DNA of 64,000 nt from Meiothermus cerbereus DSM 11376 (lineage in GTDB: Bacteria > Deinococcota > Deinococci > Deinococcales > Thermaceae): positions 1 to 64,000 of the forward strand of contig NZ_JHVI01000021.1 in assembly GCF_000620065.1 (NCBI RefSeq). Direction: 5' to 3'. Each line of letters starts with the position of its first letter. The first letter of the stretch is position 1. A model generated the notes under the pieces. It was not told the DNA's origin. It saw only the letters and a list, made by a program, of their open reading frames with translations, and searched no databases. Positions 48,793 through 64,000 of this stretch are shown in pieces. The translations under genes were made by a program, and so were the position numbers.

Positions 48793-51078
48793 TTACTTAT
48801 AGCGGTTGGAACCCGGCTGAGCCAGCGAGGGCAGGTTCATCAGCTTGCTGGTCTCGCGGTAACCTGGCAGATCGCGGTACCAGTCCTTGTAGCTCGAGCC
48901 CCCACTAGCAATCCAGGGGTCGAACTTAAGATAGCCGTCCCGGATGTCGATGCCCAGGCTAACCCAGCCTCCGGGCCCGTCCAGCTCTTCCCGGACGTAT
49001 TTGTGCTCGGTGGGCAGGTGCAGGCCCCAGGGGCGCCCGATGTTGTCGATGTAGTAGCGGCCAATCACCGGGTCGGTGGTATCGTCTTGGGTTTTGAACA
49101 GGGTGCCGTCGGCTTTATCGCTGGGGCGGAAGCCCGCTAGGTGAATCTCAACCCCCCGTTGCCACTGCGGCACGTAGCGATCGCCTTGCAGCACCACCGG
49201 GTTGGCCACAATGAAGGGGTTGTAGGGCGGCGTGCCCGGGGCGGTAAAGGGCAGGGGCTGGACCAGGTTGATGGTCATCCGCACCCGCCCAGGGGTCTTG
49301 TAGGGCTCTTCGGGCACCACGTTGGCGTAGAAGGGGCGGGTGGGCAGGGAGGGCTCGAGCAGGTCGTAGCCATCGTCGAAGACGAAGAACACCGCCTTGC
49401 TCTGGCCCGCCTCGGTGCCGTTGGGGTTGCGGTCGGTGCTGTAGTGGATGGGCGGCGGGCCAGCCTGCCAGGGGCCCCCGTTCTTCTGCCACTCGTAGCT
49501 CACGCTCTCGACCTGGCCCGGCAGAAGGTCGGTGGCAAAGGCGAAGCCGTTGTGCCAGCCCCCGCCCAGGGCTTTTACAACAAACTCGGCCTGAATCTGC
49601 ACGAGCTGGCTGTTGGCGTTGGTTACGTGGTTGATGCGGTAGTCCACCACCACGTCGTTGAAGTCGTAGTCCCCCTTGCGCGGCCACAGGTCTTCGAAGG
49701 CCAGGGTGCCATAGTCGCTTTTGGCGGGGAAGTAGTTGTTAAAGGCCCGCTCGGGGTCGCTGGGGTAGGCGTCGTAGGGGTCGTTGACGCCGTCTTCGTC
49801 GGTATCGGCGGCCTGCGGGTCGTCGGTGGGCAGGAGGTCGGCGGTGCGGGTCAGGTCGGGGTTGACGGGGTCACGCACCAGAATGGACTCCTTCTTCACC
49901 GCGGTATAGGGGCTGGCCTCCACCAGCAGGACGGCGTCGTTGAAGTCCTGGTCGCCGCCATGGTGGCGCAGAATGTCTTCGAAGCCCAGCAGCAGGGTCT
50001 GCTGGTTGTCGTCGAAGAGCAGCACCGTTTGCGCGCTTTGCTCGACGCTCATGCCCTGGGTGCGGTACAGCTGGTAGTTGAGCACCGGGTCGGAGAAGAC
50101 GGTCTGCTCGTAGCTGCGCTCGAGCACCCCCGTGCTGCTGCTGCGCCAGCCGTTGGCCACCAAAAACCAGCCAATGCCGGTTCCAGCGGGGAAAACGTCG
50201 CTCCAGTTAGCGCCATCGAAGTATTTGAGCTTGACCCGGTTGCCCGCAAGCAGGCCGCCCCCGGAGCCCTGGTAGGAGGCGTTGGGGTAAACCATAATCA
50301 TGCGGTCTAGAATCTCGCTGACGCTGTGCGGGGGGTTGTCTGCGGGGTAGATGTAGTACCCCACGGCGTTCTTGTAGCCTGCCCCTTCGTGCACGAAGGT
50401 CAGCCAGACCTCAGCTGGGTCTTTCAGCACCAGGTTACTGGTCGCTTCGCGGGCAATGTAATTCTTGTGAATAGGGTGCAGCGGCAGCGGGGAGCGCTCG
50501 GGCAGGGTGGCGTTGATGGTCTGGAGCATCTGGCTGGTGAGCTTGCTGCTATTGGTGGTAAGGTTGTTGGGCACGCCCAAGCTGTTCCAGTTGCCAAAGC
50601 CGCTCAGGTAGTGGTAGCTGTAGTTGACGCTCTGGAGCTGCACCCCCTCGGGCCTGCTGGCAGAGGCCGGAACCACCACGTTCAGGCTGCTGACCGAGGC
50701 GTTGTCCAGGGTCACTCGAGCCCGGCCCTGCTGGATAGGAACCTTGATGGGCTCGCTAATAACCCCGATGTAGTCCACGCGCAACCCCACCGCGTCGAGG
50801 TCGGCAGGCAGCGTGACCTTGGCGGCAAAGCGGCCCGAGGCATCGGTCTGGCCAGAAAGTACGGTGGAGCCTTCGTCCACCTCGCCATCGGGCAAAAAAC
50901 CCTGGAACACCGCTACCGGAGCCCCAGCGGCAGGCTGACCCAGGGCCTTGACCTGTACCTCGACCTCGACTTCCTGGGTGGTTTTGTAGTGGAAGGCCGG
51001 GCTGGCGGGCCGGGGGTTGGAGCAAGCGGCCAACCCCAGCACGGCCAGCAACAGGATATAAGTATGATTGCTGTGCAT
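48793..51078 (-). CDS. LruC-domain surface lipoprotein
   Basis: A 761-residue exported protein. The N-terminus ends in a lipobox (LLAVLGLAAC; Cys at about residue 19). An Ig-like or carboxypeptidase-regulatory-like domain follows (about 30-120), then a DUF4114-type region (GGDQDFNDAVLLVEA), a calcium-binding-looking linker DTDEDGVNDPYDAYPSD, and an LruC domain (FEDLWPRKGDYDFNDVVVDY onwards). LruC proteins are outer-surface lipoproteins of unknown role. Start at ATG 51078 after GAGGTGG. Monocistronic; divergent from the laminin-G-like gene. Confidence 0.8.
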   Translation of the reverse strand: MHSNHTYILLLAVLGLAACSNPRPASPAFHYKTTQEVEVEVQVKALGQPAAGAPVAVFQGFLPDGEVDEGSTVLSGQTDASGRFAAKVTLPADLDAVGLRVDYIGVISEPIKVPIQQGRARVTLDNASVSSLNVVVPASASRPEGVQLQSVNYSYHYLSGFGNWNSLGVPNNLTTNSSKLTSQMLQTINATLPERSPLPLHPIHKNYIAREATSNLVLKDPAEVWLTFVHEGAGYKNAVGYYIYPADNPPHSVSEILDRMIMVYPNASYQGSGGGLLAGNRVKLKYFDGANWSDVFPAGTGIGWFLVANGWRSSSTGVLERSYEQTVFSDPVLNYQLYRTQGMSVEQSAQTVLLFDDNQQTLLLGFEDILRHHGGDQDFNDAVLLVEASPYTAVKKESILVRDPVNPDLTRTADLLPTDDPQAADTDEDGVNDPYDAYPSDPERAFNNYFPAKSDYGTLAFEDLWPRKGDYDFNDVVVDYRINHVTNANSQLVQIQAEFVVKALGGGWHNGFAFATDLLPGQVESVSYEWQKNGGPWQAGPPPIHYSTDRNPNGTEAGQSKAVFFVFDDGYDLLEPSLPTRPFYANVVPEEPYKTPGRVRMTINLVQPLPFTAPGTPPYNPFIVANPVVLQGDRYVPQWQRGVEIHLAGFRPSDKADGTLFKTQDDTTDPVIGRYYIDNIGRPWGLHLPTEHKYVREELDGPGGWVSLGIDIRDGYLKFDPWIASGGSSYKDWYRDLPGYRETSKLMNLPSLAQPGSNRYK

Positions 51079-51163
51079 ACACCACCTCATCAATTAGGTT
51101 AGGCGGGGATTTGTAGAAAAGTTGTGACCAATGGGCGGGATTCCGGTAAACTCGAGGCCGCCC

Positions 51164-52777
51164 ATGTCCATGTACCGCTACCTGGCCCGCATTACGCCCT
51201 GGGGAACCCTTCTGATCTGCCTGGCGGGCCTCAACCTGGGCCTGCACTGGGGGCTGGCCCCGCGGGAAGGGCCGCTCACACCCCTGCCCTACAGCGCCGC
51301 AATCGGCAACCCCGCCCCCCCCAAGTGGCAGGAAATAAGCAGGGGCTTGTGGCTCAGCGAGGTGCATCTGGGCCGACAAAGGTCGTACCGCCTCCTGCTC
51401 AGCGGCGATGCGGCGCCGCAAAGCAGCTACGAGGTGATATTTATGGCCCAGGCCACCAGCCCGCTCGCCCGGGCCCATTATGTTCGGGTCGAGGGCCAAC
51501 GGCTTTCCAGTGGCTTCTACGACGCCCAGGGGCAGGCCCGCTCCCTGGTTGAGCACCCGCTCGAGCGCCCGCTTCCGCTAGAAATTGCGCTGGAGGCCAA
51601 GCGTTACACAATTGGGGTGGGCGGGGTGGAGGTGGCTTCGCTGCCGCTGCGCTACCAGGGGGGGCGGATCCTGCTGCGGCTCGAGGGCCGCCCAGCCCTG
51701 CGGCAGCTGCAGGTGTTGGAGGGGGCCGGCCAGCTCCAGCCCAAAGCCCCGGCCAACCCGGCCCCGGGTCGGGTGTTGTATGCCGAAAACTTTGCTAGCG
51801 CCCAGCGCCGGTTTGTGCTGCTTGGGGGCAGTTGGCGGGCAGGGCAGGGCTTCCTCGAGCAGACCGAGGCCCAGGGCTTTGACCGGGTCGCCCTGGCCCC
51901 CATCGGTCCGCAGCGCTTTTATCGCCTGCGGGTGCGCCTACAGCACCTCGAGGGCGCGGGCGGTGGGGTGGTGTTCAACCTACCCAACCCGCGCCGCCTG
52001 GCCCAGGGCCACCTGGTGCGCTACGCCGAGGATGGTCGCAGCGTGTTCTGGGGCTACTTCAATGATCAGGGCACCTTCGTAGGCCAGGGGTTTGTCAAAG
52101 TCGAGCCGCCCGGCGCCGCGCCACACCTGCTCGAGGTGTTCAGCTACGACAAAACCTACGAGGTATGGCTCGATGGCGCACAGCTTGCCCGCGACGTGCC
52201 GTTGGTTTCGAACGCTGGGCACCTGGGGCTCACCACCTCGCTCAGCCGGGTGATGTTCACCGAATTGCGCCTCGAGGCCGCTGGCCCCGCGCCCCATACC
52301 CCCCGTCTGCCCTTCGGGCCGCTCATCCTGCACGCCATCGAAGGCACCTGGATGCCGCAAGGCCAGGCCTTGTACCAGCGCTCCAGCCAGCCCACCCTGG
52401 CCCGGGCCATTAGCGCCCAGCCCCTCCGGCCCCGCCGCCTGCGGGTCGAGCTGCGCTGGGCCTCGCCCCAGGCCGGGGCGGGAATTTTTATCGTGCCCCA
52501 CCTGGGTCTGGAGCAGGGGGGCTGGGGTATACGGCTCAGCCAGGGGGGGCGCCAGGCCACCTGGGGGCGGCGGCTGGAGGGAGAACGCCTGGACGGTGGT
52601 AGTGTAACGCTAGAGCCTGGAAACCAGGTAGTCGCGATTGAGCTCGCAGAAAACCAGGCGCGTGTATGGCTCAACAATCAGCTCCTCTATACCCTTCCCC
52701 AGGCCGAAGCAGGCTTTTTGGTGTTGCAAACCCTGGGCGGCCCAGTGGGGTTCGTACCCTTGGAGGTCGAACCATGA
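51164..52777 (+). CDS. Membrane-anchored protein with tandem laminin-G/DUF1080-like domains
   Basis: A 537-residue protein with an N-terminal membrane anchor (about 9-29) and an extracellular part. Two regions (about 190-375 and 390-535) have the concanavalin-like jelly-roll pattern: ENFAS...WRAGQGFLEQ, FYRLRVRLQHLEGAGGGVVFN, WGYFNDQG, TYEVWLDG and GHLGLTTS. This is typical of carbohydrate-binding domains. TAAACT lies 11 bases before the start. The ATGA overlap joins it to the mannosyltransferase-like gene, so the two probably work on the same glycan. No catalytic residues recognised. Confidence 0.65.
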   Translation: MSMYRYLARITPWGTLLICLAGLNLGLHWGLAPREGPLTPLPYSAAIGNPAPPKWQEISRGLWLSEVHLGRQRSYRLLLSGDAAPQSSYEVIFMAQATSPLARAHYVRVEGQRLSSGFYDAQGQARSLVEHPLERPLPLEIALEAKRYTIGVGGVEVASLPLRYQGGRILLRLEGRPALRQLQVLEGAGQLQPKAPANPAPGRVLYAENFASAQRRFVLLGGSWRAGQGFLEQTEAQGFDRVALAPIGPQRFYRLRVRLQHLEGAGGGVVFNLPNPRRLAQGHLVRYAEDGRSVFWGYFNDQGTFVGQGFVKVEPPGAAPHLLEVFSYDKTYEVWLDGAQLARDVPLVSNAGHLGLTTSLSRVMFTELRLEAAGPAPHTPRLPFGPLILHAIEGTWMPQGQALYQRSSQPTLARAISAQPLRPRRLRVELRWASPQAGAGIFIVPHLGLEQGGWGIRLSQGGRQATWGRRLEGERLDGGSVTLEPGNQVVAIELAENQARVWLNNQLLYTLPQAEAGFLVLQTLGGPVGFVPLEVEP

Positions 52778-53898
52778 GGTCTGCGCTTCAGCGCTTCTGG
52801 GCTGAGTGGTCTTGGCCGCTGCAGGTGTTCTTGCTCACCCGGCTGGCCCTGCTGGGGGTTGCCTTCCTCGCCGATGTGGCCCTACCGGGACCACCCGAGG
52901 CGGCGGGGCGCCTCGAGCCGAGCAACCTTTGGCTCGATGTCTGGGCCCGCTGGGACAGCGGCTTTTACCTGCACATCGCCACCCAGGGGTACTACCTCTA
53001 CCCCGACGAACCCTCGGCGGTAGCCTTCTTTCCCCTTTACCCGCTTTTGCTCAAAGGCCTGGCGGGGCTGGTGGGCAATGCGGTGCTGGCCGGGGTGCTG
53101 CTCAGCCACCTGAGCTTTGCCCTGGCCCTGATGGTGCTCTGGAAGCTGAGCCTTCAGCTTCTCAATAGCCCGGCAGCGGCCCGGCGCGCCGTTTTGTACC
53201 TGGCTATCTTCCCCACCAGCTTCTATTTCAGTGCGGTGTACACCGAAAGTCTGTCGCTGCTGTGGGTGCTGCTGGCTTTTTATGCCTTACACGAGCGCCG
53301 GTGGGAATGGGCCGCCGTCAGCGCGGCGCTGGCTTCGGCCACCAGGGTAACGGGCATTCTGCTGGCTGGGGTGTTGTGGCTGGAGTACCTGCGGGCTTGG
53401 GAGGGGCGCAGCCGGTGGCCTGTGGGCCTTGCCCTGGCCGGGGTGGGCAGTCTGGGGCTGCTGAGCTATATGGCTTTTCTGGCCGTTCAATTTGGCGACC
53501 CGCTGGCCTTTTGGAGCGTTCAGGGTAGCTTCAGCCGCGAGGTGGGGGGCTTTATCGAGGAAATTCGGCCCCTCTTCCAGCAAAACTTTCTGACCGGCCC
53601 CATTTCCTGGAACGTTCTGCTGGATCTGCTGGCCCTGGTATTTGGGGTTGTGGGCTCGCTGGTGGCCGCCCGGCGGCTGGGGCTGGGCTATGCCCTTTTT
53701 GGCCTTTTGAGCCTGCTGATCCCTTTCAGCAGCGGAACCGGGAGCCTCAGTCGCTACGTGCTGATGGTCTTCCCTGCGTTCATGGTGCTGGCAGAGGCCG
53801 CCGAGCGCCCCTGGCTGGACAGCCTGATTCGCTTTATTTTTCCGTTGCTGCTGGGTCTGCTGCTGGCCATACATGTCAATGGCATTTTTGTGGCATAA
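52774..53898 (+). CDS. PIG-V-like mannosyltransferase family membrane protein
   Basis: A 374-residue GT-C-type membrane glycosyltransferase with nine to ten helices. The first luminal loop has the family motif WARWDSGFYLHIATQGY, in which the Asp is the presumed catalytic base, followed by AFFPLYPLLLKGLAG. Relatives transfer mannose from a polyprenyl-phosphate donor. Start at ATG 52774, overlapping the previous stop, with TTGGAGG upstream. Followed by a family A element and then a response regulator. Confidence 0.82.
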   Translation: MRSALQRFWAEWSWPLQVFLLTRLALLGVAFLADVALPGPPEAAGRLEPSNLWLDVWARWDSGFYLHIATQGYYLYPDEPSAVAFFPLYPLLLKGLAGLVGNAVLAGVLLSHLSFALALMVLWKLSLQLLNSPAAARRAVLYLAIFPTSFYFSAVYTESLSLLWVLLAFYALHERRWEWAAVSAALASATRVTGILLAGVLWLEYLRAWEGRSRWPVGLALAGVGSLGLLSYMAFLAVQFGDPLAFWSVQGSFSREVGGFIEEIRPLFQQNFLTGPISWNVLLDLLALVFGVVGSLVAARRLGLGYALFGLLSLLIPFSSGTGSLSRYVLMVFPAFMVLAEAAERPWLDSLIRFIFPLLLGLLLAIHVNGIFVA

Positions 53899-54035: not shown

Positions 54036-54707
54036 ATGATTCGTATTCTCGTTGTGGACGATGAAGCTATAGTACGTCGGACGCTGCGGGCCTTGCTGGA
54101 GCGGGCAGGTTACGCGGTGCTCGAGGCGGCCCACGGGCTCGAGGCCCTGGATCTGTTGGATGGAGCCGACCTGGTGGTGCTGGATTGGAACATGCCCCAG
54201 ATGGACGGCCTGGAGCTGCTGCGGCACCTGCGCGAGGAGCGGCCCGAGCTGCCCGTGCTTATGCTCACCGCCCACGACGGCGAGGCCGAGCGGGTGCAGG
54301 GCTTGCGCCTGGGGGCCGACGACTACCTGGGAAAGCCCTTGCGCAACGCCGAGTTTTTAGCCCGCATCGAGGCCCTGTTGCGCCGCACCCGGCGGTATGG
54401 GCTGGTGCGTGTGGGGGAGCTAGAGCTCGAGCCCGCCACCCAGGAGACCCGCCTGCAGGGGGCGGCGCTCTCCCTGACCCCTACCGAGTTTGCTCTGTTG
54501 CTGGCGCTGGCCCGACAACCCGGCCAGCCCCTATCGCGCCGAATCCTTTTCGCCCAGGTCTGGGGCAGCGACCCCCAGGTCGATGAGCGGATCGTGGATC
54601 ACTACGTCAAGCGCCTGCGCAAAAAGTTGGGCGATGACCCCAAAAATCCCCGCTACATCGAGACCGTGTTCGCTCGAGGCTACCGACTCAAGCAGCCCGC
54701 CGAGTAA
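54036..54707 (+). CDS. OmpR-family response regulator
   Basis: A 223-residue two-component regulator: receiver domain (1-115) with phospho-acceptor Asp50 (VVLDWNMPQMDG), Thr in LMLTAHDG, Lys in LGKPLRNAEF, and a C-terminal winged helix (about 130-220) with LTPTEFALLLALARQPGQPLSR and the recognition region RIVDHYVKRLRKKLGDD. No histidine kinase is adjacent. TATAAG lies 8 bases before the ATG. Its 3' end overlaps the convergent glycosidase gene by 20 bases. A natural candidate to control the neighbouring glycan genes. Confidence 0.9.
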   Translation: MIRILVVDDEAIVRRTLRALLERAGYAVLEAAHGLEALDLLDGADLVVLDWNMPQMDGLELLRHLREERPELPVLMLTAHDGEAERVQGLRLGADDYLGKPLRNAEFLARIEALLRRTRRYGLVRVGELELEPATQETRLQGAALSLTPTEFALLLALARQPGQPLSRRILFAQVWGSDPQVDERIVDHYVKRLRKKLGDDPKNPRYIETVFARGYRLKQPAE

Positions 54708-56232
54708 GCCACAGCCGCCACCCCAGCAGCAAACCCATCCCCAGCAGCAGCAAAGGCCAGAACACCAGCCATTTGCCCAAGCGCTCGCTCCAGCCCAGCG
54801 GCGGCGCAGGTTGGCCTGCAAGCACCTGCACAACCGGCTTGGGGGTTCCGTCGGCGCGCAGCAGCCCCAGGTGCCGCTCCACCGCCCGCCCCCCCGGCAT
54901 TGCACCCCGGTCGAAGTCGTAAAGGGTCCAGGCCAGCCAGCCCAGGTTGTAGCGGTGGGTGAACTGCAACACCTGTTGGTAGTGGTGGGCCTGCTCGAGC
55001 TCGCTGTGGGGGTCGGGCAGCTTGTTGCGCTGGGTGTGGAAGCCAAACTCTTCCAGCAAGAGCGGCTTTTGGTGCTTCATAAACCCCTCGATGCGCCGCT
55101 CGAGCTGGGCGGGGGTTCCGTAGTGGTGGAAGCTGAGCACCTCCAGCTCGGGCACCAGAGCCGGATGCGGCTCAATAAAACCCACGGTTATGGGCTTTGC
55201 GCTGTAGTAGCGCAAGGCCCGCGACCAGGCCCGCAAAAATTCAATCACCAGCTCTTGGCCGGCTCGAGCGTAGTCGCGGTCGGGCTCGTTCTTGGCATCC
55301 ACCAGCCAGACCGCAGGGTGCCGCAGCAGGGGCGCCAGCTCCTCGAGGTGGGCAAACACCTTGGGGAAGTCTTCAAAGCGGTAGCGGGTATAGCCGTCCA
55401 GCAGTGTCACAACCACCCGCACCTGCTGGTCCTGGGCCAGGCTCAGGAAGCTTTCAAGCCGCTGGCGGTAGCCCGGTGGGGGTGGGTAGGGCACGAAAAC
55501 CCGCCAGGTTCCAAGGCCCAGCATGCGGCCAATGCGCATATCGCTAAGCACCTCGCGGGGCTCATAGCCCGGCCCAAACAGATCGAAGGGGTGGCTGCGG
55601 GGCTGGTAGTTGACTCCCCGCACCCCGGCGGTGGAAACGGGCAGCAGGCGCGCCGGCAGGGGGCGCTCCTGCAGCAGGCGCCAGTGGTGGATGCGCCAGT
55701 TTCCGTCGTCGAGCTGCATCACCACCTCGAGGGTGCGCTCGGCCAGCCTGGCGGGGGACTGCCGGGAGACCTGCGCGTACCAGTAGGTATCGCTAAAGGC
55801 CACCGTCGCGCCGTCGGGGGCATAAAAATGCAGCCGCAGGCGGTGCTTCCAGTCCACCATCACGCCCGAGGGCCCCTGCCCCATCAGCAAGGCGTCTTCC
55901 AACGCCCCCGACTGAAAGTATGAGCGCAACCCGGTGGTCTCGCCGGTGAAGTGGGTGTGGCTCAGCTCCTCGTGGGCCAGCAGGTAGTCGCTGGTAATCT
56001 CGTCGCGGCGGAAAGGCTCGAGCGGGCGCGGGGTGGGGTCGTCGGGCAGCCACTCCAGGCGTCCGGGGGCGGCCCGGCGGGGCTCGATGAGGTTGAGGGC
56101 CTGCTCAAGTGTACTGGCCTGCTGGGCCGTGCGAAAAAGTTCCCCCAGCCCCCTCAAGCCCAGCAAAGCCAGCAGGCTGCCCAGCAGCAGCAGCGCCGCC
56201 CAGACCAGCAACTTGAGCCGAAGCTCGCTCAT
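54688..56232 (-). CDS. Membrane-tethered glycoside hydrolase (clan GH-A, cellulase-like)
   Basis: A 514-residue protein with a helix at each end (8-28 and about 488-508). Between them lie an NTF2/SnoaL-like domain (about 85-190) and a (beta/alpha)8 barrel with acid/base Glu316 in VDAKNEPD and nucleophile Glu395 in LLLEEFGF, the spacing seen in GH5-type enzymes. It should trim, release or remodel a beta-linked polysaccharide at the outer face of the membrane. Last gene of the minus-strand operon; ATGA overlap with the preceding gene. Confidence 0.82.
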   Translation of the reverse strand: MSELRLKLLVWAALLLLGSLLALLGLRGLGELFRTAQQASTLEQALNLIEPRRAAPGRLEWLPDDPTPRPLEPFRRDEITSDYLLAHEELSHTHFTGETTGLRSYFQSGALEDALLMGQGPSGVMVDWKHRLRLHFYAPDGATVAFSDTYWYAQVSRQSPARLAERTLEVVMQLDDGNWRIHHWRLLQERPLPARLLPVSTAGVRGVNYQPRSHPFDLFGPGYEPREVLSDMRIGRMLGLGTWRVFVPYPPPPGYRQRLESFLSLAQDQQVRVVVTLLDGYTRYRFEDFPKVFAHLEELAPLLRHPAVWLVDAKNEPDRDYARAGQELVIEFLRAWSRALRYYSAKPITVGFIEPHPALVPELEVLSFHHYGTPAQLERRIEGFMKHQKPLLLEEFGFHTQRNKLPDPHSELEQAHHYQQVLQFTHRYNLGWLAWTLYDFDRGAMPGGRAVERHLGLLRADGTPKPVVQVLAGQPAPPLGWSERLGKWLVFWPLLLLGMGLLLGWRLWLTRRAA

Positions 56233-57404
56233 GGGCGGGGTACCTCCAGGCGCGCGCGCTGGCCCGCAAGCTCAAGCTCGAGCCAGAAGGGCCGGGCCAA
56301 AGGCGGGGGCGTCCAGAGGGCCTGCCCGTTGACCAGCGGAACGCTCTCCTCCAGCAAAAGCCGCCCGGCCGGGTTCACCACGCGCAGCCGCAGCGGGGTT
56401 CCATCGTCGGGGAGGGCGCCCAGCGCGTCCACCACCGGGCCTATGCGCAAGCGTTTTCCGCTCCAGCGCAGCGGCAGGCGCACCACCCGCACGGCCGGGC
56501 GCGCCCGCAGCGTGATCTCGCTGCTCATCCAGCCCTCGCTCCAGGCCCTCAAGGGATAGCTTCCCGCCCGGTCGGGTAGCGGCAGCGAGAGGGGCAGGCG
56601 GCCCTGGGGCGCCGAGCGGGTCAGGAAGAAATCCTCCAGGGCGCCACCAATCAGACTGACGGCCAGCCCGTCGGGGGCAAGGTTGCCTTTTTCGTCGCGC
56701 AGCCCCTGCACCTCAAGCGCCCAACGGTCGCGCCCGGAAGTGGCCGCCTCTGGCTGGAGCGGCAGCAGCGCCCCAGTGCGAATGCGGCCCGGCAGCACAT
56801 CCACCTCGGCCCGCTCGCCCCGGGCGGTTCCGCTCTTTACCACCACCTTCAGTATCCCGGTGCGGCTTCCTGGGGGAAAGTAGCTCCAGGCCAGTTGGCG
56901 AACCACCGGCAGCACCCATTCCCGCTGCCCCCCATCGGGATAAAACACCTTCATCCGCACCGGCTCTTCGGCCACGTTGAGCTGCGCGTCAAGGGGGTGC
57001 AGTACCAGCGAGGGCTGGCGGGGGGCGTCCAGCCGAACTGCCCGCGCCCCCACCTTGGGTTGCAGGGGGGTTACGGCCGGGCCAGGCCGCCGCCGCAGGG
57101 TTCCCTCGAGGCTGGCCCCACCGACCTCGAGGCGGTAGGGAATCAGCCCGGCCCGACGGTAAGGGATAAAAACCTCCCCCTCTCCCTCGCTCACCAGCGG
57201 CCCTGCCGGGGTGAAGAGGCGTACACGGAACCAACCCTCACCCCGGAAGCGCACCCCTGCCGGGGACACCTCCGCCCGAATCGCGTGCAGGGCGGCAGGC
57301 CGTGGGGGCGGTGCGGCCGGGGTGCGGCTCTGCTGCCAGAACAGCGCAACCTCCAGGGCCAGCACCGCACTCAGTAGTAGAACCAGGAGAATCTTTCGCG
57401 GCAC
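56229..57404 (-). CDS. Signal-anchored beta-sandwich-like protein of unknown function
   Basis: A 391-residue protein with an N-terminal anchor (5-24) and an all-beta-looking extracytoplasmic part with repeated hydrophobic/charged alternation (about 40-110, 120-205, 210-300, 310-390), suggesting three or four Ig-like modules. I recognise no catalytic motif. Overlaps the glycosidase start (ATGA) and begins 4 bp after the GT-C gene, so it is likely an accessory or scaffold of the same exported-glycan machinery. Confidence 0.65.
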   Translation of the reverse strand: MPRKILLVLLLSAVLALEVALFWQQSRTPAAPPPRPAALHAIRAEVSPAGVRFRGEGWFRVRLFTPAGPLVSEGEGEVFIPYRRAGLIPYRLEVGGASLEGTLRRRPGPAVTPLQPKVGARAVRLDAPRQPSLVLHPLDAQLNVAEEPVRMKVFYPDGGQREWVLPVVRQLAWSYFPPGSRTGILKVVVKSGTARGERAEVDVLPGRIRTGALLPLQPEAATSGRDRWALEVQGLRDEKGNLAPDGLAVSLIGGALEDFFLTRSAPQGRLPLSLPLPDRAGSYPLRAWSEGWMSSEITLRARPAVRVVRLPLRWSGKRLRIGPVVDALGALPDDGTPLRLRVVNPAGRLLLEESVPLVNGQALWTPPPLARPFWLELELAGQRARLEVPRP

Positions 57405-57408
57405 CGGC

Positions 57409-60400
57409 TCAATCCTCCCGATAAAAAGCCTGGGCTTGCAGACGGTAGGCCCGTATATCCCCAGCCACCAGGGGTCGGGTATCGGCCGGCACGCCTGGAA
57501 TGAGGCGCTCGAGCAGGTTGGGGCTTTCGCTCAGCTTATGCAGTTCCTTCAGCACTGCATAGCCCTTGGGTAGCCCGGCCCGCAGGCGCGCCTCGCGCTG
57601 CTCGCGCGGGGGAATCGACTCCAGCAGATACTCGCGCTCCACCCAGGCCAGGCCCTTGCGGTCGTAGAGCGAGAGCAGCACCTGGGGCACGGTGGCCTCC
57701 CGCACCCCCAGGTTATCTACCCGCAGGCGCAGAACATCGCCCTCGCGGCGGCTCCAGATGGCCAGATCGCGCCGCAGTTCGCGCGAGGTGACTACCGCTT
57801 TCAACGCCACCTCGAAATCCCCGATGGCGGCTGGGTCGGGTGGGGCTGTCACCCCGTCGAAGTCGATCCGGAAGGGGGTTCGCTCGCCAGGCAGGAGTTT
57901 GTGTAGCACCAGATCTCGAGCGTTGTTGCGGCTTATCTCGAGGCCATCCCGCCCGCGCAGAAAGCCGCTGATGGTCAGGTCGGCAGGGCGGGCATCGAGG
58001 TTTTCCACCTCCCCCACGATGGCCAGGAGGGGCTTGGGGGCATCTTCGGGCCAGTAGCGCACCAGCCGGGCTGAGCGCAGCCGCAACAGGGGGCGATCCA
58101 GCACATCGCCGGCGGCAGTAATGTCGGTGCTGAGCCGCCGCTGGGCCCGAAAATACTCCACCCCTGGCTGGCTGGCAAAGCGCTCGGGGGGGCGGGTCTT
58201 GAGCAGTGGGCGCTGCTCGATCCGCCAGCCTTTGGGGGTGTGCACCAGCAGGTGTTCGTGGGTCTCCTGCACGGTTTTGAGCGCGGTCAGCCAGGTCAGC
58301 TCGACCTGCACCAGCGCCCGCCCGTCCTGCCGAATCACCTGCACCGGGCGAATGTGCTCGAGCTTGGCATAGCCGCTACGCAAACCGCCCTGCACGCTCA
58401 GGTCGAGCTGCCAGCGCTCCTTGGTCAGGCCCTCGGTGGGCGCAATCCATTCCCAGGCCTTCTCAAAGCGTTTGAAGTCGAGGTGATCCCAGTAGCGGAT
58501 AACCGCCCACTCGGGGGTGTCGGGGGGATTAAGCCAACGCCAGCCCAGCCAGCCCAGACCCAGCAGCGCCAAAGCCAGCAGGCTCGAGGCCAGCAACCGC
58601 TTGCTCAACGGCTTTCGCTGCACCTGTATGCGCCCCTCCAGGGCACGCAACAAGCGCAACCAGGGCTGCCAGGGGCTGGGGGGCTCGGGCGGCAGGGCGT
58701 CCTCGACCAGCCAGCTTTGCAGGCGGACAGGAACCCAGGGAAGACGCCGGGAACGAAACGGCGGGAGCAGCAAGCTCAGGTAGGCCAGCAGGGGCATGGC
58801 CACGGGAAGCGTGCCCCACATCATGCGCTGCCAGACCGGCAATTTGCGCCGGGGCAGCCGCTCCGGCAGGGGCGGGATGTCCTCTCGCTCCCAGACCATA
58901 ACCCCGTTCTCGAGGCGGCCCAAGCGGTGCCAGCCGTAAAAGTGCAGCAAGGGGTCATAGAAGGCGTCGTTGGAGTAGATGAACTTGAGGTTGTAGCGTT
59001 CGGGGTAGGTCAGAAACTGCTGCAGGCTGCCAATTCCGGGCACTCCGGTATACTTGGCGCCCTCCAGCCGCTCAACCGGGGTGGTGGTCAGCTCGGGCAA
59101 ACGGCGGGCCGAGTGGTAGTTGCCGTCCGGGGTAGAGGCCCGGGTGTTGGCCGAAAGCCAGGCCATCTGGTCGCCAAAACCCAAGGTGAGGTAGCGGTAG
59201 CGCCAGTGCTCGTCCTTCTCGATAAAGCTCAGGATGGGGGCAATCTCGATGGTTTCGGGCTGGAACTTGCGGTAGCGGGTGAGGGTCGAGATGCCGATGG
59301 AAGCAGTCACCGCAAAAAGCACCAACCCCAAAAGCAAAAGCAGGCGCACCCGTTTGCCCAGGTTGGCCTCGAGCCACAGGCGCAGGCGGCCCTCGAGGGC
59401 GCTTTGCAAGGCCATTCCGGCAAAGGGCAGCACCAGGATGGTGGCCCAGAAGGTGAAGCGATCCAGGGTAAGGATATCGAAGGCCCCCCGCAGGAGCAGC
59501 TTGGGAATGGGGGTGGTGCCGCCGGTTCCCAGCACAAACAGCAGGCCCAAACTGGCCCCCAGGGGCCACAGGTGCGAGAGGCTTTTGTAGAAGGCGTAGG
59601 GCAGGAAGACCAGGCCGCTGGCCCAGGGGATGAGCCAGAACATCAGCCCCATGTTGGGCTGCTGCAAAAAATTGGCCCGGCTGCCATGGGGAATGGGCAC
59701 TTGCGCAATGGGGTCGGAACGGCTCCAAAGCCAGTAGGGCAGCACCACCAGCACCAGCGCCACAATGGCCACCATACCGAAAACGCCCGTCCGATACAGG
59801 CGGGGCAGAACCCGGTACACCCGTCGTCGCACCTGCTGAAACAAACCTCGGCCCGAAGGCTCTCCCGGACGGGGCTGGCGCAGGCCCTCCAATACCAGCA
59901 TGGCCACCACTGGCCCGATAAAGAAAACCGAGCCAAACAGGGTAGTGACGTGGTGGGCCGCAGTGGTTGAGCCTATCCAGACCGACGCCTTGAGCAAGTA
60001 TCCCCAGCGCCCGGTGCGGATGTAGGCCCACACCCAGGGAATGGCGTTGAGCAAAAAACCCAGCGAGAGTGTGGTGGGAAGCTGGCCGAACACATGCACG
60101 GTTTCGGCGATGGCGCTTGAGAGCACCAGTGCCAGGGCCGCAAAACCAGCAGCCTTTGGCGCAACAAATAGCCTCGAGAAGCGGTAAATACCCACGGTGA
60201 GCTGGAGCAAGGCAAATAGCTGCACCGGGGCAAAGGCCAGCTTCAACCCCACTACCTTGGAGGCCAGGGCAATCAGGAAGTGGGAGAGCGGGGGGTAGGA
60301 GACCAGCGAAAAACCCGTATACCAGCGCGGCTCCCAGGGGTCAAACCAGCTTTGGGCGTAGTGGGCCCCGAAGAAGGTGTGAATCAGGGCGTCATAGGTA

Positions 60401-60537
60401 CGAAAATACTGCAGATTAAACAGCAAAGTGCCGTGAAAGAGCAGGGTTAGCAGCAAAGCCACAGCCAGGAGAATCAGGCCGGGCTGCTCCTCTTTTAGCA
60501 ACTCCCGAAGGGCAGGGCAAGGCGAATTGCGCAGCAT
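57409..60537 (-). CDS. Large GT-C-like polytopic membrane protein with C-terminal NTF2-like domain
   Basis: A 1042-residue protein. About 12 helices in residues 20-610, with the first-loop motif TYDALIHTFFGAHYAQSW (Asp49, His52), as in GT-C transferases and the bacterial 6-pyruvoyl-tetrahydropterin-synthase-related membrane family. After another helix near 650-670 comes an NTF2-like domain (IRYWDHLDFKRFEKAWEWI, about 685-790) and a further beta domain (about 800-950). Polyprenyl-linked sugar transfer across the membrane is the likely role. The glycosidase in the same operon also has an NTF2-like domain. Confidence 0.7.
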   Translation of the reverse strand: MLRNSPCPALRELLKEEQPGLILLAVALLLTLLFHGTLLFNLQYFRTYDALIHTFFGAHYAQSWFDPWEPRWYTGFSLVSYPPLSHFLIALASKVVGLKLAFAPVQLFALLQLTVGIYRFSRLFVAPKAAGFAALALVLSSAIAETVHVFGQLPTTLSLGFLLNAIPWVWAYIRTGRWGYLLKASVWIGSTTAAHHVTTLFGSVFFIGPVVAMLVLEGLRQPRPGEPSGRGLFQQVRRRVYRVLPRLYRTGVFGMVAIVALVLVVLPYWLWSRSDPIAQVPIPHGSRANFLQQPNMGLMFWLIPWASGLVFLPYAFYKSLSHLWPLGASLGLLFVLGTGGTTPIPKLLLRGAFDILTLDRFTFWATILVLPFAGMALQSALEGRLRLWLEANLGKRVRLLLLLGLVLFAVTASIGISTLTRYRKFQPETIEIAPILSFIEKDEHWRYRYLTLGFGDQMAWLSANTRASTPDGNYHSARRLPELTTTPVERLEGAKYTGVPGIGSLQQFLTYPERYNLKFIYSNDAFYDPLLHFYGWHRLGRLENGVMVWEREDIPPLPERLPRRKLPVWQRMMWGTLPVAMPLLAYLSLLLPPFRSRRLPWVPVRLQSWLVEDALPPEPPSPWQPWLRLLRALEGRIQVQRKPLSKRLLASSLLALALLGLGWLGWRWLNPPDTPEWAVIRYWDHLDFKRFEKAWEWIAPTEGLTKERWQLDLSVQGGLRSGYAKLEHIRPVQVIRQDGRALVQVELTWLTALKTVQETHEHLLVHTPKGWRIEQRPLLKTRPPERFASQPGVEYFRAQRRLSTDITAAGDVLDRPLLRLRSARLVRYWPEDAPKPLLAIVGEVENLDARPADLTISGFLRGRDGLEISRNNARDLVLHKLLPGERTPFRIDFDGVTAPPDPAAIGDFEVALKAVVTSRELRRDLAIWSRREGDVLRLRVDNLGVREATVPQVLLSLYDRKGLAWVEREYLLESIPPREQREARLRAGLPKGYAVLKELHKLSESPNLLERLIPGVPADTRPLVAGDIRAYRLQAQAFYRED

Positions 60538-60552
60538 GAGCGCCTGGGCCGC

Positions 60553-60903
60553 TTAGTCGAGGAGCCGGCTCACCTCGCGCAGCAGTTCCTCGCGGGAAAA
60601 GGGCTTGGTCAAAAAGGCATCCGCCCCCAGTTGACGCGCTTCGATTTCGAATTGCTCTTCGCCGCTGGCTGTCAGCACCAGAATGGGCAGGTTGGAGAGC
60701 TGCCGTACGTGGCGAATCAGGTCGAACCCGCTCATCCCAGGCATGACCAGGTCGGTAATCAGCAGGCGCACCTCCGGGTGATCCCGCCATAGCTCTACCG
60801 CCTCGCGGCCGTTGTCGGCCACAAGCACTTCGTGGCCAGCCCGCTGCAGCACCAGGCGCAGGACGTGGCGGATGTGGGGTTCGTCGTCAACAGCTAAAAT
60901 CAT
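60553..60903 (-). CDS. Single-domain (CheY-like) response regulator
   Basis: A 116-residue stand-alone receiver domain: acidic pocket Asp6-Asp7, phospho-acceptor Asp51 (LITDLVMPGMSG), Thr in LVLTASGE and Lys in TKPFSREEL. It has no output domain, so it must act by binding a partner, perhaps the GT-C protein 15 bp downstream or the phosphatase module. ATGA overlap with the STAS gene. Confidence 0.92.
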   Translation of the reverse strand: MILAVDDEPHIRHVLRLVLQRAGHEVLVADNGREAVELWRDHPEVRLLITDLVMPGMSGFDLIRHVRQLSNLPILVLTASGEEQFEIEARQLGADAFLTKPFSREELLREVSRLLD

Positions 60904-61211
60904 GCGCCCTCTTCAATGGGAATCACCTTGTCCAGAAGGGTTAGCTCGAGCACCTTCCGCACCGCCGGGCTCGGATTCTCGATAATCAGGCTACCTCCAT
61001 TGTTTTTGGCCTGTTTAAGCCCGGAAACCAGGGCTGCCAGACCCGCGGAGTCCATGAACTCCACCGCGCTCATGCTCAGCCGAAGATCCCGAGCGCCCCG
61101 GTCGCGGGCTTCTCCCAGGATCTGGCGCAAACCAGGGGCTTGCTGCATGTCCAGTCGTCCTTCTATCACCAACCGAGCTGCAGTATCGGAAATCATCTCA
61201 TAACTAATCAC
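60900..61211 (-). CDS. STAS-domain anti-sigma-factor antagonist-like protein 1
   Basis: A 103-residue SpoIIAA/RsbV-like protein. The phosphorylatable serine is Ser55 in EFMDSAGLAALV. In partner switching the unphosphorylated form sequesters the kinase; phosphorylation by it releases. GTG start overlapping the ATPase stop. Sequence differs well from the second STAS protein at 62685, so the two may have separate partners. Confidence 0.9.
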   Translation of the reverse strand: MISYEMISDTAARLVIEGRLDMQQAPGLRQILGEARDRGARDLRLSMSAVEFMDSAGLAALVSGLKQAKNNGGSLIIENPSPAVRKVLELTLLDKVIPIEEGA

Positions 61212-61570
61212 CTTTCCACCTCCCCAAACTCAAGCGTAAGGCAATTCCAACTGCCTTTCCTACGGTACCGCATCCCGCGCACGACCTTGTGTACAATTGC
61301 CATCCCGTACCCCCCCTCGCGCATCTCCCCCATGGGCCGCACCGGCCCCTCGAGGGGATTGAAAGGAACGCCATCGTCGAGCAGCCACACCTGCTTACAC
61401 CTCGAATCTATGCGCACACGGAAACAACGGGCCCGCCCGTGCACGGTAGCGTTGGTTACCAGCTCACTCACGGCCAGCTCCTCCAAAATATCCAGTCCCC
61501 AGGCACGCAAAAAGTCCGACAGCGGCTCGAGGGAGTCGGTGCGGGCTGGCAGGGTCAGAACTAGTCGCAA
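61208..61570 (-). CDS. RsbW/SpoIIAB-like serine kinase (HATPase_c_2)
   Basis: A 120-residue GHKL ATPase: N box ELAVSELVTNATVHG with the Mg-ligand Asn, G1 box LDDGVPFNP, and G2 box GGYGMAIVHKVV. Proteins of this type phosphorylate STAS antagonists and hold a sigma factor or other target. No sigma factor gene is adjacent. It overlaps the phosphatase gene by 10 bases. Confidence 0.92.
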   Translation of the reverse strand: MRLVLTLPARTDSLEPLSDFLRAWGLDILEELAVSELVTNATVHGRARCFRVRIDSRCKQVWLLDDGVPFNPLEGPVRPMGEMREGGYGMAIVHKVVRGMRYRRKGSWNCLTLEFGEVER

Positions 61571-62682
61571 GACCCCACCCCCTGATAGCGGTAAATGTGC
61601 AGGCCTAAATCATCGCGCACCTCAAAGCCGTTCATCGCGACCTCGAGGGCCTCCAAAAACTCCTCGGGCTCGGGGTTGGCCTCGAGTAGTTGGCGCAGGC
61701 GCTCCAGGCCAAACAGCTCACCGCCCCGGTCGGCCTCAATCAGGCCATCGGTGTACACCAGCAACAACTCCCCTGGCTTTAGCTCGAGCTGCCGCATAGC
61801 CGCGGGAGGAGGGTCAAACAGCCCCAGGGGCGGGGCGGTGGCTCCAAAGGCATCTACCCTGCCATCGAGGCGGCGCACCAACAGGGGTGGGTGGCCAAAA
61901 CTGACGTATGAAAGCCGGCCGTCCTGCCCAAAGCTGACCATAGCCAGGGTAGCAAAAGCCCCAGCCCGCTCGAGCAAAGGTGCTGCCGCGCTCGCCAGCG
62001 CTTTCGGCGGGTCGGGCTGCTCTAGGGCTATTGGGACAAGGCCGCTGAGCAGTCCGCTGTGCATGGCCGCTGGCAATCCTTTGCCGCTGACATCGCCCAG
62101 CACCCGCCAGCTCCCCAGCGCCAGCTGAAAGTCACCTCCCAGGTCGCGGGCGGGCCGGAAACTGCTCAACAGCGTATAGCCCGCCGGGGCAGGCAGGTGG
62201 TTGGGCACCAGCGTGCTCCAAATCTGGCTGGCCAGGGTGCGCTCGTGCTCTTCCAGCTGCAGGCGCTCGCGCAAGGCCTGATCCTCCAGGCGCTGAAGCG
62301 AGACCCCAATCATCTGGGCTAGCGCGTTAACAATGCGCTGATCGTGGGCGCTAAACGGCCTCGAGCGGCCCCACAAGGCCAGCCACCCCCCAGGAAAAGC
62401 CACCGCGTAAAGCGCTTCTTCGCGCCGTTGCAGGCGCTTGGCCGGCGCGGGCAGGGCCGCCAGCCACGAAGGCACCTCCTGCAGCCAGCGCCCCCTCGCC
62501 CAGATGGCCGCCCCAGCGCAGGCAAGCTTCTGCGCGGTTTCCAAAAGAAGCGCCAGAATATCGGCCTCGCTGGCGATTTGGGCCGAGTGCACCATCAGGT
62601 CCTCGAGCCACACCGTGCGGTCGTAGCAGTCGGCCAAGGCTTCGCTGAGGTTTTCCAGTTCCTGTAAAGCCGTATCGGGCAT
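61561..62682 (-). CDS. GAF-SpoIIE/RsbU-type PP2C serine phosphatase
   Basis: A 373-residue signalling phosphatase. N-terminal coiled coil and GAF domain (about 20-140), a linker helix (LQLEEHERTLASQIWSTLVP) and a PP2C-type domain with metal-binding acidic residues in DLGGDFQLAL, GDVSGKGLPAAM, VYTDGLIEA and RDDLGLHIYR. It would dephosphorylate the STAS proteins in response to a ligand or partner sensed by GAF. Start at ATG 62682, 2 bases after the STAS stop; a TTG two codons earlier is possible. Confidence 0.92.
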   Translation of the reverse strand: MPDTALQELENLSEALADCYDRTVWLEDLMVHSAQIASEADILALLLETAQKLACAGAAIWARGRWLQEVPSWLAALPAPAKRLQRREEALYAVAFPGGWLALWGRSRPFSAHDQRIVNALAQMIGVSLQRLEDQALRERLQLEEHERTLASQIWSTLVPNHLPAPAGYTLLSSFRPARDLGGDFQLALGSWRVLGDVSGKGLPAAMHSGLLSGLVPIALEQPDPPKALASAAAPLLERAGAFATLAMVSFGQDGRLSYVSFGHPPLLVRRLDGRVDAFGATAPPLGLFDPPPAAMRQLELKPGELLLVYTDGLIEADRGGELFGLERLRQLLEANPEPEEFLEALEVAMNGFEVRDDLGLHIYRYQGVGSCD

Positions 62683-62684
62683 AC

Positions 62685-62975
62685 TCAAGCCTCAATGGGC
62701 AAAATCTCCAGCAGTCCGGTGATCTCCAGGATCAGGCGCACCGGGTCTTGCAGGTTGCGAATCAACAGGGTTTTTCCTTCCTCGCGGGAACGTTTGAATA
62801 GGTTAACCAGCAAAGCCAGACCGCTCGAGTCCACAAAGTTGACCCCTGCCATATCCAGCACCGTGCGGGAGCCGAGCTCCAGTCGGCTTTTGAGCAGGGG
62901 AACCTGGTGGGCATCAAAGCGCCCTTGCAAAGCGTAGATGGTCTGACCGTCCAGATCGTGTCGCTCAACGTGCAT
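62685..62975 (-). CDS. STAS-domain anti-sigma-factor antagonist-like protein 2
   Basis: A 96-residue STAS protein with the phospho-site Ser50 in NFVDSSGLALLV, closer to the SpoIIAA DSSG consensus than the first STAS protein. Starts within the end of the glycosyltransferase gene (11-base overlap), so glycan and signalling genes share translation as well as transcript. Confidence 0.92.
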   Translation of the reverse strand: MHVERHDLDGQTIYALQGRFDAHQVPLLKSRLELGSRTVLDMAGVNFVDSSGLALLVNLFKRSREEGKTLLIRNLQDPVRLILEITGLLEILPIEA

Positions 62976-64000
62976 GTTTCCTCCTCAGGCGTTCAAAGTG
63001 CAGCAGGTACCAGTCCGCTACGTCCTCGAGCAAAACCCCCACCGAGGCGCGGTAGTTGGCCTGCCCCATCTGCTGGGCATACGCTCGGTCGCTAAATAGC
63101 CGCCACAGGGCCTCGGCCAATCCCCCTACATCGCCCGGCGAGAAAAACTCGGCCCGGTAGCCCTCGGCCTCCACCAGTTCGGCCAGGTCGCCGATGCGCG
63201 GCATAACCGCGGGCCGGGCATACTGTCCCGCCTGGTGCAGCACCCCAGAGGAGCCGGTGGTAGCGGTATAGGGGAAAGCCACCACATAGGCCTCCGTAAA
63301 GACCCTCGCCACCTCCTCCTCGGGCACATAGCCGGTGTAGGTCACCCCAGGGATATCCCCGTAAACCGCCCGCAGGCCCTCGAGGTAGCCGGGTGCGTTG
63401 GGCGAGTTGGTACCTGCGACCACCAGTTCCACGCTCGGGTCGCGCTTTAGCAGCAGTTGATGTGCTTCCAACAGGGTTTCCAAGCGCTTGTAGGTACCAA
63501 ACTTGCCAAAGGCCAGCACCCGCTTGGCCTCGGGCAAGGGCGGTGGGGGGCCAGGGTCTTCAAAGGCCCCGTGGGGGGCCAGAAACACATTCTTAGCCCC
63601 GTATTCGCGCCGCAAAATCTCTACGTAGGTGGGCATGGTGGTAGCCACCAGGTGGCTTTGCAAAAGAAGTCGGGTAAAAATCCTACCCCCAGCCCGCAGT
63701 ACCCGCTCCTTCAGGGGGTTCTGTGCATACCCCGCCTGACGCAAATCAATGGTTTCGAAGAGGTTGTGCAGTAGGGTAATGGTTGGAATGCCCAGCGCCC
63801 GCGCCATACCTGGTGCCAGCAAGCCCAGCGCAGCCGGAATCGCAGAGCCACCAAAGCTGGCAAACTGGAGGTTGAAGATTACGGCATCCGGTTGGAGTTG
63901 CTGAAGGGTGCGAGCCAGCCGTAGCGAATTAATCGGGCTACCAAAAGCCCAGACCCGGCGAACATTAGGGGGGTCGGAGGGGGCGTCCACCCCTGTGGGT
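62965..64000 (-). CDS. Glycosyltransferase, GT-B fold (family 4-like), 5' end cut by window edge
   Basis: At least 345 residues of a cytoplasmic GT-B transferase; the frame is open to position 64000, and the N-terminal Rossmann start is missing, so the gene continues outside. Visible parts: QPDAVIFNLQF, PTITLLHNLFE, the C-domain donor site VLAFGKFGTYKRLETLLEAH and TGSSGVLHQAGQYARPAV. A GTG at 63990 is an unlikely start. Expected to add a sugar to a lipid- or polymer-linked acceptor. First visible gene of the nine-gene minus-strand operon. Confidence 0.85.
   Translation of the reverse strand, partial: PTGVDAPSDPPNVRRVWAFGSPINSLRLARTLQQLQPDAVIFNLQFASFGGSAIPAALGLLAPGMARALGIPTITLLHNLFETIDLRQAGYAQNPLKERVLRAGGRIFTRLLLQSHLVATTMPTYVEILRREYGAKNVFLAPHGAFEDPGPPPPLPEAKRVLAFGKFGTYKRLETLLEAHQLLLKRDPSVELVVAGTNSPNAPGYLEGLRAVYGDIPGVTYTGYVPEEEVARVFTEAYVVAFPYTATTGSSGVLHQAGQYARPAVMPRIGDLAELVEAEGYRAEFFSPGDVGGLAEALWRLFSDRAYAQQMGQANYRASVGVLLEDVADWYLLHFERLRRKHAR

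Follow-up and report, generated by a model that had tools for sequence, protein, structure and literature searches.

The DNA window analysed here covers positions 1 to 64,000 of contig NZ_JHVI01000021.1 of the thermophile Meiothermus cerbereus DSM 11376. Its far end carries an operon in which genes of a putative surface glycan pathway are joined to those of a partner switch, namely two STAS proteins, a SpoIIE-type phosphatase and a RsbW-like kinase, together with a stand-alone receiver. The initial annotation described a nine-gene operon on the minus strand. A check of the open reading frames (ORFs) in the window recovered all nine on that strand, overlapping or spaced by at most 15 nt, whereas the extent had to be revised: the contig continues for 7.3 kb beyond the window (positions above 64000 are contig coordinates), where genes for a GT2 glycosyltransferase, a flippase and a GDP-mannose enzyme follow on the same strand, making a full operon of 12 genes. 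These three and the GT-B gene overlap or are separated by gaps of no more than 4 nt. Inside the window, junctions overlap by 11 nt (GT-B/STAS1), 10 nt (SpoIIE/HATPase) or 4 nt (STAS1/SpoIIE, HATPase/STAS2, STAS2/receiver and beta protein/glycosidase), with gaps of 15 nt from the receiver to the GT-C-like protein and of 4 nt from the latter to the beta protein (Table 1). No RNA element was found by Rfam between positions 50000 and 64000.

Table 1. Genes of the operon and its surroundings, with their positions and the matches or features on which each assignment rests
Feature	Position	Strand	Evidence or remark
ManC-like GDP-mannose pyrophosphorylase	contig 66100-67152	- (operon strand)	
Wzx-like flippase	contig 64896-66095	- (operon strand)	Pfam Polysacc_synt 1.7e-9, above cut-off
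GT2, polyprenyl-phosphate sugar synthase-like	contig 64130-64909	- (operon strand)	
GT-B (GT4-type) glycosyltransferase, 387 aa	62965..64000 in window, start at contig 64128	-	Pfam Glyco_trans_1_4 1.2e-17
STAS protein 1, 96 aa, phosphorylatable Ser50	62685..62975	-	Pfam STAS 8.1e-16; Asp49-Ser50 motif
SpoIIE/PP2C-type serine phosphatase, 375 aa	61561..62688	-	Pfam SpoIIE 2.1e-31
RsbW/SpoIIAB-like serine kinase, 120 aa	61208..61570	-	Pfam HATPase_c_2 4.1e-11
STAS protein 2, 103 aa, RsbV/SpoIIAA-like	60900..61211	-	Pfam STAS 3.6e-17
Stand-alone receiver domain, 116 aa, acceptor Asp51	60553..60903	-	Pfam Response_reg 4.8e-29
1042-aa membrane protein, N-terminal half GT-C-like, C-terminal part beta-rich	57409..60537	-	11 hydrophobic segments
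Membrane-anchored chain of Ig-like domains (beta protein), 391 aa	56229..57404	-	one N-terminal transmembrane helix; Big_1/Invasin_D3 in relatives
Membrane-tethered clan GH-A glycosidase, mannanase/glucuronidase-like, 514 aa	54688..56232	-	invariant Glu pair; family profiles
GAF/PAS histidine kinase, 1266 aa	start at contig 67194	divergent from operon	no predicted membrane segments
OmpR-type response regulator	54036..54707	+	convergent with operon; Response_reg and Trans_reg_C; place kept in L007
PIG-V-like (Mannosyl_trans2) GT-C mannosyltransferase	52666..53898	+	Pfam PF04188 1.2e-12, above cut-off; also convergent with operon
Phosphomannomutase/phosphoglucomutase	44929-46350	-	near operon

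Components of the switch and of the glycan cassette

Pfam matches bore out the identities first given to both STAS proteins, the RsbW-like kinase, the CheY-like receiver and the GT-B enzyme. The phosphatase had been called a GAF-SpoIIE protein; its SpoIIE domain was confirmed, while no GAF domain was detected in the window's own protein, the N-terminal half of which has no assigned domain. Of nine related phosphatases, four have a detected GAF domain and two further ones, from Anaerolineae, a receiver fused to SpoIIE, so that the input domain varies.

The features of Rsb/SpoIIA-type partner switching are in place, i.e. a STAS Ser/Thr within a DS motif, intact ATP boxes in the kinase and the metal-binding Asp residues of the phosphatase. 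Both STAS proteins of the window have a phosphorylatable residue, and in relatives the position is occupied by Ser in 21/23, with one Thr and one His. In the kinase, N-box Glu36/Asn40, Asp65 and Gly87/Gly89 are kept in 11/11 sequences, as are Asp186, 199, 314 and 359/360 of the phosphatase metal site (10/10) and Asp51 of the receiver (7/7). The nearest solved structure to STAS2 is an anti-sigma-B antagonist (6m36, 2.4e-11). The STAS proteins form two groups. Members of one mostly stand beside GT-B, those of the other mostly downstream of the kinase, and this second group spans both Deinococcota and Chloroflexota with moderate support (87/87). Two unusual forms were noticed among relatives. In L099 (1433-1828, +), a STAS gene beside GT-B has His replacing Ser with no kinase or phosphatase close by and is possibly an unswitchable relic. 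In L063 (107-2167, -), a Wzx flippase shares a single ORF with two stretches of RsbW-like HATPase, of which the second is truncated at its G2 box.

On the glycan side, single-sequence searches of Pfam, NCBIfam and PDB were empty for the GT-C-like, beta and glycosidase proteins, and family alignments were needed. In the GT-C-like protein, Asp49 of the first loop is invariant among 17 relatives, which gave weak Pfam matches to PTPS_related (5/17) and PMT_2 (1/17); its family alignment found no solved structural relative, and an AlphaFold model from four sequences (pLDDT 43) was discarded as too poor. For the beta protein, the AlphaFold model (pLDDT 69) shows one N-terminal helix followed by a chain of beta-sandwich strands, and a fold search with it returned only generic immunoglobulin-like (Ig-like) matches with low TM-scores. 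In the glycosidase, Glu316 (KNEP) and Glu395 (EEFG) are invariant in 15 sequences, with Cellulase matches in 8/15 relatives, family-profile matches to GH5, GH2 and mannanases, and an endo-beta-mannanase as the best solved match (7bob, 2.3e-16). Its predicted catalytic Glu pair and its TIM-barrel glycosidase family are those of clan GH-A. The flippase is of the Wzx type, as in a Wzx-dependent lipid-linked pathway, and domain scans named no Wzy polymerase and no Wzz/Wza-type partner among the 12 operon genes; the 1042-aa membrane protein, itself unassigned, could polymerise. The GT2 is related to polyprenyl-phosphate hexose synthases, and the nearby phosphomannomutase/phosphoglucomutase is a possible source of mannose-1-phosphate. 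From ManC, this mutase, the PIG-V-like enzyme, the relationship of the GT2 and the mannanase-like glycosidase, we infer that the glycan is of a mannose type.

Some Wzx flippases of relatives differ in length: those at L069:4685-6517 (+) and L070:11172-12995 (-), directly upstream of GT-C, have about 185 extra N-terminal residues, and the one in L070 has no Pfam match at all. In Anaerolineae a small similar ORF lies upstream of GT-C (L072:14072-14707, -; L060:6938-7513, +; L061:13021-13587, -), with a weak DUF218 match in the one scanned.

Linkage of switch and cassette in other genomes

The initial annotation expected the switch to lie beside the GT-C-like protein in relatives if the coupling was more than incidental. 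We define the glycan cassette as the GT-C-like protein, the anchored Ig-like protein, the GH-A glycosidase, GT-B, GT2 and the flippase, and as informative those Deinococcota and Anaerolineae genomes, 14 in all, in which the GT-C protein, the GT2/GT-B pair and flanking sequence are all present. The counts exclude loci truncated at the end of a contig (e.g. L064, L065, L067, L069) as well as L062, which has GT-C, beta protein and glycosidase but lacks GT2/GT-B in the roughly 18 kb to each side; some of the relative genomes are metagenome assemblies. STAS was linked to the cassette in 14/14 informative genomes, and STAS, kinase and phosphatase together in 9/14. By comparison, 0/7 paralogous GT-C loci had STAS (Fisher p 8.6e-6, a descriptive value only, the informative loci having been picked after their maps were seen).

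Within that family, the GT-C protein together with this phosphatase was found in 2/50 genomes, the window genome and one congener. Profile searches recovered GT-C relatives in 23/396 genomes of the class to which the Anaerolineales record belongs, in 6/110 of the Deinococcales record's order and in 6/391 of the order of Planktomarina, called Rhodobacterales here. In a second species of the genus (L007) the whole locus is kept at 85-93% identity, with GT-B at 92%, and GT-B shares 47-59% identity with counterparts in other Deinococcota and in Anaerolineae. Recurrence in a second species and, at lower identity, in other phyla argues that the set is not a product of chance.

Could the signalling genes nonetheless be chance neighbours of a glycan locus? 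The rarity of the locus in its family would fit, as would the Rhodobacterales cassettes described below, which lack the switch; because of this rarity the locus probably arrived by transfer. Yet the combination occurs in two phyla, in every informative genome, and co-diverges, while a SpoIIE gene within 15 kb is expected by chance in 1-5% per genome. Pairwise distances among GT-C proteins correlate with those among their SpoIIE (r 0.94), kinase (r 0.93) and STAS1 (r 0.86) counterparts, with p values from within-phylum label shuffling of 0.003, 0.0055 and 0.014, respectively. These correlated distances support joint inheritance of switch and GT-C, co-divergence alone being no proof of physical contact. 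Since the linkage is conserved, chance neighbourhood is largely refuted and we regard it as very improbable; the coupling of switch and cassette is real and conserved rather than incidental.

The Rhodobacterales provide a natural control. In five genomes (L116, L117, L118, L119, L120), GT-C, beta protein, glycosidase, GT-B, GT2 and flippase lie in a single run, and no STAS, SpoIIE or RsbW-like kinase was found in these five cassettes. A response regulator gene stands directly upstream of GT-C in 5/5, its output being LuxR-type in L009 according to Pfam, and a histidine kinase gene lies nearby in 3/5. A sixth locus (L115) has only GT-C, beta protein and glycosidase in the stretch examined. Because a response regulator takes the place of the switch in these cassettes, the switch, as read from gene content, is a replaceable control module and not a part of the synthesis machinery, the glycan cassette being the constant part.

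Candidate targets of the switch

In a genome that is 99.99% complete, SpoIIE and stand-alone HATPase_c_2 each occur once and STAS twice, in every case within this operon. Three Sigma70_r2 genes are present, one frame of 640 aa (the size of RpoD) and two of 198 and 188 aa (the size of extracytoplasmic function (ECF) sigma factors). Candidate targets are few, since the switch is joined to a compact glycan cassette in one operon, further switch components are absent from the genome and its sigma factors number just three.

The switch could act on a sigma factor whose gene lies elsewhere in the genome (RpoD or an ECF), which would set transcription of the operon among other genes, the linkage reflecting co-regulation only. 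All canonical parts of such a switch are present, STAS2 resembles RsbV/SpoIIAA, the genome does have sigma genes to act upon, and the Rsb network of Chlamydia controls the primary sigma factor according to a title cited in PMC8256260. However, none of the three sigma-70-type genes is on the contig of the operon, and the genome has no SigB/SigF-sized sigma, hence no cognate group-3 sigma of the canonical sigma-B/sigma-F kind. Moreover, the ORF beside one ECF gene looks like that ECF's own anti-sigma factor. A scan with the three genome sigmas as queries, which divergent sigmas could escape, covered 871 kb in 49 loci, the window among them and some of them overlapping, and gave no homologue in any switch-bearing locus; the sole match, an ECF-like ORF, came from L079, which is a paralogous GT-C locus and lacks the switch. 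Neither the contig extension nor the switch-bearing loci of relatives thus showed the adjacent sigma gene that would have made the coupling incidental, and the initial proposal, a glycan system coupled to a partner switch but not to a sigma factor, stands well, being conserved across phyla, co-diverging and found in switch-bearing loci free of sigma genes. Control through a distant sigma factor is in our judgement unlikely.

Alternatively, STAS may activate a diguanylate cyclase whose cyclic di-GMP (c-di-GMP) then activates glycan synthesis, as in the Bgr, Hsb and Sia partner switches, whose output runs through such cyclases (PMC7647112, PMC8457831). It is documented that STAS proteins can govern polysaccharide or biofilm by way of a cyclase (PMC8457831, PMC7647112), and 15 GGDEF matches were counted in this genome. 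Yet none of the 15 is on the contig of the operon, so that the linked cyclase of Bgr/Hsb/Sia-type switches is lacking, and domain scans saw no c-di-GMP-binding domain among the operon proteins. The c-di-GMP route is possible but, with no GGDEF match on this contig, unlinked, and we rate it below the sigma factor route. In a Deinococcales locus, an HD_5 (HD-GYP-like) protein, which would accord with c-di-GMP signalling, is encoded between a histidine kinase and the flippase (L058:2525-3157, +), with similar-sized ORFs in L055 and L059.

Our preferred reading, to which we give about an even chance, is of an operon for a lipid-linked surface glycan of mannose type, in which the partner switch controls a target other than a sigma factor. 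This target is probably a cytoplasmic step, GT-B or the flippase. The GT-C-like protein, first proposed as the target, is not favoured over these, because STAS adjoins GT-B (11/14 genomes) or Wzx (several) more often. ManC would supply GDP-mannose and the GT2 would form polyprenyl-phosphate-mannose; in the cytoplasm, GT-B would assemble a chain on its lipid carrier, which the Wzx-like protein would flip, the GT-C proteins would extend it outside, and the anchored Ig-like protein and the glycosidase may guide or trim it. The RsbW-like kinase would phosphorylate both STAS proteins and the SpoIIE phosphatase would dephosphorylate them under the control of its own N-terminal domain and probably of the receiver. 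Unphosphorylated STAS, or the kinase that it frees, would then bind the target and turn assembly on or off; each binding step and the direction of the switch are what we infer from the genes. Perhaps STAS phosphorylation directly gates the cytoplasmic enzyme or flippase of lipid-linked assembly, with neither sigma factor nor c-di-GMP in between and conserved across Deinococcota and Chloroflexota, a narrower proposal that we advance only tentatively. If this is true, a partner switch would be wired straight onto a glycan machine.

Several points weigh against such direct control. Adjacency of genes is no proof of binding between their products. Given the regulator upstream of GT-C in Rhodobacterales, whose cassettes lack the switch, control in the window could also be transcriptional. 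In the Deinococcales genome G453, one of the 14 informative ones, STAS has His for Ser, no kinase or phosphatase is close by and the gene is about 24 kb from GT-C, yet it adjoins GT-B. Finally, the HATPase-Wzx fusion of L063, whose HATPase part is truncated, may be an assembly or deletion artefact; as direct proof of a flippase target it was set aside, and three close Wzx homologues are unfused.

Known systems and neighbouring genes

The initial annotation knew of no described system with this gene order, which was too strong. Polysaccharides under switch control are known from Vibrio syp, Sinorhizobium bgr and Nostoc hmp, with other enzymes and another gene order. The closest in logic is the syp locus of Vibrio fischeri, a polysaccharide locus that encodes a STAS protein (SypA) and SypE, a kinase-receiver-phosphatase, and in which SypA, when unphosphorylated, favours biofilm by acting on a target not yet known (PMC4517449, PMC10120452). 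Here too, STAS, RsbW-like kinase, receiver and PP2C phosphatase are encoded in a polysaccharide locus, so that the STAS genes are placed as in a Syp-type locus, and their products would act on a putative target other than a sigma factor. In contrast to SypE, which fuses kinase, receiver and phosphatase, the switch domains are separate genes with two STAS proteins, and the GT-C-like protein, the GH-A glycosidase, the putative polyprenyl-phosphate-mannose route and the phyla also differ.

Bgr of Sinorhizobium meliloti (BgrV/W/U, mixed-linkage beta-glucan) likewise controls a polysaccharide and involves no sigma factor (PMC7647112, PMC8457831), but its output is the diguanylate cyclase BgrR, and no cyclase is on the contig of this operon. 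In Nostoc punctiforme, HmpU/V/W form a phosphatase, STAS and kinase set in a locus for hormogonium motility and polysaccharide, again with the target unknown (PMC8256260); that is a cyanobacterial motility locus, and no such glycan cassette is described with Hmp in the cited literature. The Bacillus Rsb/SpoIIA switches share the STAS Ser, the kinase N-box and the PP2C metal sites, and differ by the SigB/SigF-type sigma gene, absent from this genome and from the surroundings of switch-bearing relatives. The locus is therefore of a known kind (syp/bgr/hmp), while its gene set, its two-STAS layout and its phyla differ from theirs; no description of this gene set was found in the open-access literature. 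What STAS acts upon without a sigma factor is an open question for SypA and HmpV as well.

As to the neighbourhood, the PIG-V-like mannosyltransferase adjoins the cassette in L007, L055, L068 and L070. Further away, a 766-aa DUF4842/DUF4114 protein is encoded at 48793-51093 (-) of the window, between a UvrD-like helicase gene and the ORF at 51131-52777.

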